64,000 nt of DNA. It comes from Portibacter marinus. GTDB lineage: Bacteria; Bacteroidota; Bacteroidia; Chitinophagales; Saprospiraceae. The notes under the pieces were generated by a model. The model was not told the origin of the DNA and made no database searches. It saw only the letters and a list, made by a program, of their open reading frames with translations. This document shows, piece by piece, positions 43,904 through 47,016 of the stretch. The stretch's first letter is position 1; each line of letters begins with the position of its first letter. The DNA lies in assembly GCF_021533195.1 (NCBI RefSeq), contig NZ_JAJNKB010000003.1, positions 583,001-647,000 on the forward strand. The letters run 5' to 3'. The position numbers and the translations under genes are program-made.

Positions 43904-43990
43904 TTAAATCTTATGCGCCTGCATTTTTGTTTCCTCCCCTTGACCATTCACTCTGAGAATATTGGCCGTCACTCCGCCATCTTCGATTAA
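43619..43990 (+). pseudogene. Possible truncated hypothetical gene
   Basis: The frame encodes 123 residues. The first ~90 (ADRKFYCTNFEVNGYFYDTL, FQQYVTAILYSNKHGLISLV, YGSGWERIRVEG) look like normal protein. The remainder runs antisense into the 3' end of the dioxygenase gene (overlap 87 bp) and has an unlikely composition. I take it as a gene whose 3' part was lost, or a chance frame. No family is recognised. Confidence 0.3.
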
Positions 43991-44785
43991 TTCAAAGGTT
44001 ATGGTATTAGGATTGCTGGTTCCCGGATATACAAAGGTATTGTCTCCCACATAATTAAAACCAAGGCCAAATATTTCGTTCTTCATCCATAGCTGCCCTT
44101 CATGTTTGAAAAATTCCATTTCTCTGTCCCCTTTACTCATTTTGTATTTACCTACAATCCGATCGAGTGATTCCGGCGATACCAAAAACTTATCCTGCAT
44201 CGTGACATGGTACTCCACCACACTCATTTCGCCTTCTTTCTTGACATCAACGATTCTGTTTTGGGCCGCAGCAGATGATGAGCTTGCGTCATCGTCCAGA
44301 TATTCATCACCTTTAAAATAAATCTGGGTTACCAGACTTTGATAGCCAGGCGCGCTGATCAACATATGGAAATGAGCCGGTCTGTAATTGCCCGGACTGG
44401 CCTGATAAGGTACAGGCAAATGCGTCGTAAATTCATAGGCCCCATTTTCATCACACATGGTTGTTCCTCTGTATAAAAAATCATCACTGTCGTTGTCATA
44501 GATCTCATCAGGAGAACAATGCCATAATTCCACCCTTGCATCTTTAAATGGAGTAGTACAGTCCGGAAGGCGAACCATTCCTTTCAATTTAACCAACATG
44601 CCCTCCTTTCCGGGAACAACTAAATTGTTCCTCAGAGGAGCGTTAGGCCGATAAAACGGTCCCAAAATATCTGATGTGGTTTCGCAATCTGCTACATATT
44701 TACTGCCATTAAAGGCTATTTTTCCAAAGGCGGAAATGGCAATAGCTCCCAGGGAAGCGTACTTGGTGAAATCTCTTCTTTTCAT
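43904..44785 (-). CDS. Intradiol ring-cleavage dioxygenase-like protein with Tat-type signal
   Basis: 293 residues. The N-terminus MKRRDFTKYASLGAIAISAFG has an RR motif followed by a hydrophobic stretch, suggesting Tat export. The domain shows the catechol/protocatechuate dioxygenase pattern: LGPFYRPNAPLRNNL, VELWHCSPDEIYDND, and NYRPAHFHM with Y134, H138 and H140 as candidate ferric iron ligands, Y96 being another. The last ~75 residues form a separate region (EMEFFKHEGQLWMKNEIFGLG). No other aromatic degradation gene is near. It may act on secreted phenols or tannins, which is only a guess. Confidence 0.85.
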   Translation of the reverse strand: MKRRDFTKYASLGAIAISAFGKIAFNGSKYVADCETTSDILGPFYRPNAPLRNNLVVPGKEGMLVKLKGMVRLPDCTTPFKDARVELWHCSPDEIYDNDSDDFLYRGTTMCDENGAYEFTTHLPVPYQASPGNYRPAHFHMLISAPGYQSLVTQIYFKGDEYLDDDASSSSAAAQNRIVDVKKEGEMSVVEYHVTMQDKFLVSPESLDRIVGKYKMSKGDREMEFFKHEGQLWMKNEIFGLGFNYVGDNTFVYPGTSNPNTITFELIEDGGVTANILRVNGQGEETKMQAHKI

Positions 44786-44880: not shown

Positions 44881-44912
44881 TTTGTATTTATTTGATATAT
44901 CAAATATATTTG
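44881..44912 (+). promoter_or_regulatory. Consensus Bacteroidota promoter, rightward
   Basis: TTTG at 44881-44884, a 20-bp spacer, then TATATTTG at 44905-44912, an exact fit to TTTG-N(19-21)-TAnnTTTG. Transcription would start near 44919, about 95 bp before the ATG of the trypsin-like chimera gene. Confidence 0.7.
44889..44906. promoter_or_regulatory. 18-bp perfect palindrome, candidate operator
   Basis: TATTTGATATATCAAATA is a perfect 18-bp palindrome overlapping the spacer and the start of the -7 box of the promoter at 44881-44912. The minus-strand reading also yields TATATTTG at 44908-44901, so a protein bound here could control both divergent genes. Confidence 0.55.
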
Positions 44913-45012: not shown

Positions 45013-46002
45013 ATGAAACACATCATAAAAGCATTGACCTTATTACTTTCAATCTTCTATACCATAGAACTGAACTCTATCATCATTCGGCATGACATTG
45101 AAGAAAAACAGTTTATTGAATTGGCTAAAAATCTCCCTGTCATTGATGCCATCGTCAAATACAATGAAACAGATGTTGCAGGTACACTCATTACAGATCA
45201 ATGGGTGCTTAGTGCAGCACATGTTGCCGAAACCATTAAAAATGATCACAAACTTATCGTCGCCGGCGATTCTGTCGGGATCCATCAGATTTTTATCCAC
45301 CCTGAATGGGAGGAAGAAGACAGGCCTGATCTCGCACTCATCAAACTCAATCAACCTTTAAAGCATGTAAAACCTGTCCCATTGTACACCGAAATGAATG
45401 AAGTTGGCCAGGAAGTTATTATAGCCGGAATAGGTGACTTCGGCAACGGACTTACTGGCATTCAGGGAAAACCGGGAACCATGAGGGCCGCAACCAATCT
45501 TGTAGATGGTGTTACGGAGTATTATACCAGGGTATCTAAGTACTCCAATTGGATCGAAGAGACCATCAGTGACCATTCCGTAGAAAACTTGTTTGATTTT
45601 TGGGTTGGAGAATGGGAAGTCAGTTGGATTTCAAATGACTCAACCAGAATAGTAGGCACCAATACAGTGCTCAAAATTTTGGATGGCAAAGTCATACAAG
45701 AAAACTTCAACGATCCTTCACGGAATTTTAAAGGAACCAGTATTTCTGTTCTTAACACTGCAGACAACGCATGGCATCAAGCGTGGGCATACAATCAGGG
45801 TGGTTATTATGAGTTCGTGGGTGAACGTCAAGGTGAAGATAGAATCTTCAAAACTAAGAATGAGGATGAAAGAGGCGCAACCTACAGGATGATTTTTACC
45901 GATATTAAGCCTGATTCCTTCACATGGAAATGGCAAGGTATTAAAGAAGGTCTGGACGACTGGAAAACGGTATGGGAAATTGATTATGTCAGAATCCAAT
46001 AA
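45013..46002 (+). CDS. Serine-less trypsin-like protein fused to a lipocalin-like (DUF1579-like) domain
   Basis: 329 residues with a signal peptide. Residues ~45-185 match the trypsin fold: H70 in LSAAHVAE and D106 in RPDLALIKL are placed as catalytic His and Asp. The segment that should follow NLVDG, including GDSGGP with the catalytic Ser, is missing; near residue 168 the sequence passes straight to TEYYTRVSKYSNWIEETI, the C-terminal helix of trypsin-like proteases. A second domain from about residue 190 (LFDFWVGEWEVSW, GTNTVLKILDGKVIQENF) resembles a DUF1579-like lipocalin fold. The frame is intact, so it may be a functional pseudo-enzyme or a deletion product. Confidence 0.75.
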   Translation: MKHIIKALTLLLSIFYTIELNSIIIRHDIEEKQFIELAKNLPVIDAIVKYNETDVAGTLITDQWVLSAAHVAETIKNDHKLIVAGDSVGIHQIFIHPEWEEEDRPDLALIKLNQPLKHVKPVPLYTEMNEVGQEVIIAGIGDFGNGLTGIQGKPGTMRAATNLVDGVTEYYTRVSKYSNWIEETISDHSVENLFDFWVGEWEVSWISNDSTRIVGTNTVLKILDGKVIQENFNDPSRNFKGTSISVLNTADNAWHQAWAYNQGGYYEFVGERQGEDRIFKTKNEDERGATYRMIFTDIKPDSFTWKWQGIKEGLDDWKTVWEIDYVRIQ

Positions 46003-46011
46003 GAGTCACAA

Positions 46012-47016
46012 ATGGAAAAAGAAATAAATATAACTCTACTTAAATTACTCTTCATACTCATTACTACATTGGCGTGCAGCTTCGCTGCGCATAGTCAAAC
46101 GAAACAACAGCTGTATCAATCCAGTGAAGTAAGCTATCACAATGATGAAATACAAATTGCTGCTACTCTATATCAGCCTTTGCATCAGGAAAGCTTTCCT
46201 GCTGTCGTGATTGTCCACGGCTCAGGAAGCAGTTCTCGCGATAATCTGTGGACCTCAGCATATGCAGAATCACTCATCAAAAGAGGGATTGCAGTTTTAT
46301 ATCCAGATAAGCGTGGTAGCGGTAAGACCACTGGCAACTGGGTAACCTCAGATTTTACTGAATTATCCGAAGATGCCATAGCAGGAGTTCATTACTTAAA
46401 GGGCATCAGTGGTGTCGATACCAGCAGAATAGGTGTTATAGGGTTTAGTCAGGGCGGCCATATCGTTCCCCTTGCAGCTTCCATTTCAACCGACATCAAA
46501 TTTGTAGTAAGTGTTTCAGCTTCCGTAGTCCCCATGGTAGAACAAATGATGGATGAAGTTGAACTCATGGCTGAAAAAGAAGGATTAAATCGTTTGGAGA
46601 TTGAAAAAGTGAATGAAATCAATCAATTAGCCATCAATGCAGCATTAAACGACACCGATGGACAGGATTATATCGACGCATTAAACAAAGCAAAAAATGG
46701 TGCTTTAAAAGGAAAACGGGTTGTTGAAGGGTTTCCTACAGATCTTAACCAACCCGCTAAAACATTTATTAAGACCATTGGGAATTATGACCCAATGCCT
46801 TATTGGATGGAGGTCAACATACCCATACTATTCGTATATGGAGGTAAGGACGAAAATATTAGAATATCTAAAAGCATTAACCTCATTGAAAAGTCTTTGA
46901 GTCAGAGAGATTCTAATTATTCTCTCTTATTGTTTAACAAAAATGGGCATGCCTTGTACAGGGAGGATTTACTGGATTTCATGGCTCGTTGGATCTTTGA
47001 CAAAGGTTCAAACTAG
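46012..47016 (+). CDS. Exported alpha/beta hydrolase
   Basis: 334 residues, 9 bp after the preceding gene. A signal peptide (LLFILITTLACSFAAHSQ) is present. The oxyanion region VIVHGSGSSSRD, the nucleophile S146 in GFSQGG and the late His in NKNGHALY complete the triad. The fold is that of the dienelactone hydrolase/prolyl oligopeptidase type serine hydrolases. Substrate unknown; it shares the promoter at 44881 with the trypsin-like chimera. Confidence 0.85.
   Translation: MEKEINITLLKLLFILITTLACSFAAHSQTKQQLYQSSEVSYHNDEIQIAATLYQPLHQESFPAVVIVHGSGSSSRDNLWTSAYAESLIKRGIAVLYPDKRGSGKTTGNWVTSDFTELSEDAIAGVHYLKGISGVDTSRIGVIGFSQGGHIVPLAASISTDIKFVVSVSASVVPMVEQMMDEVELMAEKEGLNRLEIEKVNEINQLAINAALNDTDGQDYIDALNKAKNGALKGKRVVEGFPTDLNQPAKTFIKTIGNYDPMPYWMEVNIPILFVYGGKDENIRISKSINLIEKSLSQRDSNYSLLLFNKNGHALYREDLLDFMARWIFDKGSN

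Follow-up and report, generated by a model that had tools for sequence, protein, structure and literature searches.

The window analysed here, a stretch of 64,000 nucleotides from Portibacter marinus, contains a 329-codon gene (45013..46002, forward strand) in which the remnant of a secreted S1-family trypsin is joined, within one unbroken open reading frame (ORF), to a lipocalin-like barrel. The remnant retains the catalytic histidine and aspartate and the C-terminal helix of a trypsin, and lacks the segment bearing the catalytic serine. The encoded protein is a trypsin by ancestry only, and is probably a dead, recently truncated protease remnant riding on an intact and possibly functional calycin barrel. 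An earlier reading of the same DNA, made from the letters themselves (the sequence-only reading), had described a trypsin with its His, Asp and C-terminal helix but without GDSGGP, and a frame that runs intact into a second domain; both descriptions are borne out by the profile and alignment evidence below.

The Retained Trypsin Part

A trypsin-like profile match, on which the sequence-only reading had made its interpretation depend, is present: PF00089 (Trypsin) matches residues 56-142 with an E-value of 2.8e-13 and 50.7 bits, against a gathering cut-off of 20.6, and the match covers only profile positions 28-129 of 220. Comparison with PDB trypsins by phmmer gave two blocks, one around the catalytic His and Asp (residues 56-147) and one at the C-terminal helix (residues 170-186), the latter weak when taken alone. 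The catalytic histidine is His70 (base 45220), within the motif SAAH, and the catalytic aspartate is Asp106 (base 45328), within RPDLALIKL; the N-terminal S1 part also bears an IIIRHD motif and GIGDFG. The seven closest relatives share 40-46% identity with the retained parts over about 165 columns, and a chance ORF was therefore ruled out. The segment with the catalytic serine (GDSGG) is absent from the ORF and did not turn up elsewhere in the P. marinus genome, where the ORF itself is present as a single copy.

In the trypsin fold, the missing stretch corresponds approximately to chymotrypsin residues 155-226, a region that holds Ser195 with its oxyanion hole, the S1 pocket, and the majority of the second-barrel strands. 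By this structural correspondence, the second of the two six-stranded barrels that make up a complete trypsin appears to be mostly gone, and proteolysis by the remnant is not credible, because the catalytic serine, the oxyanion hole, and the pocket would be lost with it. In a structural model of the full-length protein the trypsin half is unconfident, and since its alignment contained no trypsin rows, the model is uninformative for this half.

The closest known counterparts are secreted S1 trypsins (MEROPS S1/PF00089) of a Bacteroidota 'IRHD' group, represented by L204, L085, and L134, which have in common with the window protein the leader, the IRHD motif, the equivalents of His57 and Asp102, GxGDxG, and the C-terminal YYTRVS..W helix, with 44-46% identity over the retained part. 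They differ in possessing the 60-66 residues, including Ser195, the oxyanion hole, and the S1 pocket, that the window protein lacks, and in not being fused to this barrel.

An In-Frame Deletion

The missing segment was placed by comparison with 34 trypsin-domain relatives, 33 of which were complete enough to judge (L177 runs off the end of the stretch retrieved). A serine motif is found in all 33, as GDSGG in 31, GDSAG in L204, and GDSGA in L227, and the relatives share the leader with the 'IRHD' start and the motifs SAAH/TAAH, GxGDxG, RAATN, and YYTRVS..W. In the 23 closest relatives, the codons equivalent to Asp165 and Gly166 stand 60-82 residues apart (median 65); in the window gene they are adjacent and meet at bases 45507/45508. 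L204, the closest relative, is an unfused full-length protein, and its GVTEYYTRVS is identical. When the full-length trypsin L134 was used as a query against the P. marinus genome, its residues 11-166 and 229-255 matched at abutting positions within the trypsin-barrel ORF, and its middle 62 residues had no match anywhere in that genome, either as a copy or as an orphan fragment.

Relocation of the segment to another place or contig was thus rejected by the searches of the organism's own genome. Six other PF00089 matches are present there; five were read and are HtrA-like or similar proteins with their own GNSGG, and the sixth (L168) is a weak match in a long ORF and stands outside that count. 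Because the relatives carry the intervening segment and no copy of it was found elsewhere in the genome, these alignments strongly support an in-frame loss of about 195 bp from what was once an ordinary secreted trypsin; the sequence-only reading had suggested a frame-keeping deletion at about base 45515, close to where the junction lies. In the relatives, glycine is often found on both sides of the gap: L134 has GAT GGT GCC on the upstream side and TAC GGT GTA on the downstream side, compared with GAT GGT GTT ACG GAG in the window. A slip between such short direct matches (microhomology) would probably have removed the segment in frame.

Several features of individual relatives are of separate interest. 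In L204 (1372-2244), GDSAGP replaces GDSGGP, so that an alanine takes the place of the glycine beside the catalytic serine. L134 (1501-2544), a full-length, serine-bearing trypsin, carries a C-terminal extension that is DUF3471-like by eye and matches no Pfam model; here a small beta domain seems to have been added to the trypsin group on a separate occasion. By eye, the full-length relatives L134 (G827) and L183 (G788) lie directly behind a MarR-like regulator gene and L182 (G196) directly behind an AraC-like one; the window gene has neither type of regulator as a neighbour.

The Lipocalin-Like Barrel

Residues 190-329 belong to a widespread family of secreted proteins, most of which stand alone, each with its own N-terminal leader; identity to the closest members is about 50-54%, with 53-54% as the highest values. 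The sequence-only reading had called this domain DUF1579-like and lipocalin-like. Its fold assignment is right, as judged from the predicted structure: the AlphaFold2 model of the barrel has 10 strands with a pLDDT (predicted local distance difference test) score of 93.9, and its best solved Foldseek matches are the spirocyclases OlmO (E 3.1e-7) and OssO, the anti-sigma factor RsfG, and nitrobindin (E 4.8e-4), which places it in the calycin (lipocalin-like) fold, an antiparallel beta-barrel with eight to ten strands. The DUF1579 label applies to the wider family: the window domain reached no Pfam model, DUF1579 (PF07617) included, and DUF1579 is weakly matched by 29 of 44 aligned family members at E<=1 (best E 4.6e-8).

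Against the solved folds 7sfn, 7sfp, and 3wje, the template modelling score (TM-score, query) of the barrel is 0.87-0.89 for OlmO, 0.82 for OssO, and 0.64 for nitrobindin, at a sequence identity of 7-14%, with which a transfer of function is unjustified. A sequence search of the PDB with a profile of the barrel returned no convincing relative, and a search for DUF1579 in the literature library used found nothing. The nearest counterparts are DUF1579-related calycin barrels of Bacteroidota (L003, L006, L083), which share the FDFWVGEW start, the 10 strands, and 53-54% identity, and differ in being mostly stand-alone proteins with their own leader, whereas the window barrel is joined to a trypsin remnant. 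The join falls between the C-terminal helix of the trypsin and the conserved FDFW start, directly next to both, which leaves the window barrel without its own leader.

Being fused is in itself not unusual for the barrel family, because L084 (502-1914) combines an alpha/beta hydrolase and the same barrel in one ORF, and because barrels occur in tandem at other loci, as neighbouring genes (L012, L014, L016, L031, L041, L072) or within one ORF (L112). The particular combination with a trypsin appears only once in the material searched. About 1,435 genomes were covered, comprising the genus (3 genomes), samples of the family, order, class, and phylum, and two extra families, with usually the best five candidates per genome scored, so that an uncommon, divergent copy may have escaped; no other trypsin-barrel fusion was found among them, in the 80 loci retained from a further scan of 84,980 species, or in the viral contigs searched. 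Neither of the other two genomes from the genus contains a match to the trypsin-barrel gene. Full-length orthologues with GDSGGP and the same second domain, proposed by the sequence-only reading as a check, were likewise not found in the approximately 1,435 genomes, which yielded no active fusion ancestor.

Origin and Present State

The ancestor would have been an ordinary secreted S1 trypsin of the Bacteroidota-wide 'IRHD' group, which acquired at its C-terminus the mature portion of a secreted lipocalin-like protein that had stood alone. An in-frame loss of about 60-66 codons, probably via slippage, would have taken away the segment around Ser195 together with the greater part of the second barrel; the fusion and the deletion may have occurred in either order. 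The product, if made, would be exported and unable to cut peptide bonds, and its present function, if any, most likely resides in the intact C-terminal barrel, where the binding of a small ligand is suggested by analogy with calycins. The trypsin half would then be a young, non-enzymatic remnant.

Several observations weigh against the idea of a dead remnant on a working barrel. The trypsin part is not eroded, differing at 5 of 43 well-conserved positions, which is mid-range among the relatives; the ORF contains no stops, so that selection on the whole protein remains compatible with it; and both the fusion and the deletion kept the frame, an outcome with a random chance of 1 in 9. In the barrel, 5 of 46 conserved positions are changed, towards the high end of its set, and these changes include D70Y (in WADNQGG, where the Asp is otherwise invariant), G124L, and D116K, which makes the function of the barrel uncertain as well. 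A young deletion, with or without selection, fits the conservation counts, and function and youth are inseparable by conservation because identity to the nearest relatives reaches only about 45%.

That the protein is a functional secreted pseudo-protease, in which the N-terminal trypsin barrel serves to bind proteins and is attached to a barrel that binds a ligand, is unlikely. The intact frame, the conserved core positions, and the clean domain boundary at the fusion speak for it, as do the fusion of the same barrel to another protein in L084 and the existence of functional bacterial trypsin-like pseudo-proteases such as MamO (PMC4794232). Most of the second trypsin barrel appears to be gone, however, and the architecture was found in a single instance among the genomes searched; the binding function that the sequence-only reading had offered as one possibility gains no positive support. 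MamO is described as having a degenerate active site in a protease domain whose structure was solved (PMC4794232). MamO and the window protein share a trypsin-type domain without catalytic competence, and the loss in the window protein is far larger, with most of the second barrel apparently missing. The window protein is not a complete trypsin domain with a degenerate active site, as 60-66 residues are absent in comparison with its close relatives. Clip-domain serine protease homologues of insects generally keep the full fold, with the serine replaced. These homologues are likewise secreted multidomain proteins with a non-catalytic S1 domain (PMC6901238), and their partner domain is unrelated to the window barrel.

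A maintained, secreted two-part binding protein, in which the half-trypsin (first barrel and C-terminal helix) folds and works as a non-enzymatic module on the calycin barrel and which would be a single-barrel pseudo-protease, is decidedly improbable; if it were so maintained, half of the trypsin fold could survive as a non-catalytic module. It is very doubtful that loss of the serine segment was selected to abolish proteolysis in the fused protein, leaving the barrel as the sole working part and the N-terminal half of the trypsin as leader and linker: the barrel would need the trypsin's signal peptide for export, as this explanation expects, but its serine-bearing fused ancestor did not appear in the genomes searched. 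Least credible of all is a sequencing or assembly artefact hiding a full serine segment. The genome is a draft of 65 contigs, which speaks for it, but the missing segment is on no other contig and the frame is kept exactly; the few matching bases (GGTG-like) that flank the gap in relatives are far under any assembly word size, and a collapsed repeat is therefore unlikely, the matches being too short for an assembler to collapse. The truncated, inactive remnant is more likely a snapshot of protease inactivation, in which the catalytic segment was lost in frame before other decay. For annotation, a Trypsin domain match does not make this protein a protease.

Genomic Setting

The positions of the features are collected in Table 1. 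The promoter-like motif lies about 100 bp upstream of the ATG, and such motifs start at eight positions on the forward strand of the window. Co-transcription of the downstream alpha/beta-hydrolase gene with the trypsin-barrel gene is possible.

Table 1. Features of the trypsin-barrel gene and its immediate surroundings (window positions).
Feature	Position	Strand	Basis
Bacteroidetes-type promoter-like motif (TTG ... TATATTTG)	44882..44912	+	Pattern match alone, weak
Probable Sec signal peptide	45013..45078	+	MKHIIKALTLLLSIFYTIELNS; inspection: basic N-terminus, hydrophobic core, position as in relatives
N-terminal part of S1 domain, ending at Asp165	45079..45507	+	PF00089 match; alignment with 23 relatives
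Deletion junction GAT/GGT (Asp165/Gly166)	45505..45510	+	Extra residues, including the Ser motif, in relatives (60-82)
Trypsin C-terminal strand and helix	45508..45573	+	GVTEYYTRVSKYSNWIEETISD; GVTEYYTRVS identical in L204 and L134
Calycin (lipocalin-like) 10-stranded barrel, DUF1579-related	45583..45999	+	AlphaFold2, Foldseek, 44-member alignment
Alpha/beta-hydrolase gene, downstream	46012..47016	+	Starts 9 bp past the trypsin-barrel stop

In the other genomes of the genus, the flanking hydrolase has distant homologues only, and homologues of the neighbouring dioxygenase-type protein (44-45% identity) lie on other contigs; no empty site around the trypsin-barrel gene was readable in a synteny comparison with these genomes. 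The dioxygenase-type gene, at 43904-44785 on the reverse strand and divergent from the trypsin-barrel gene, encodes an intradiol-dioxygenase-type protein (PF00775) with a C-terminal stretch that weakly matches DUF3471, so that the two adjoining genes each encode a protein with an added small beta domain.
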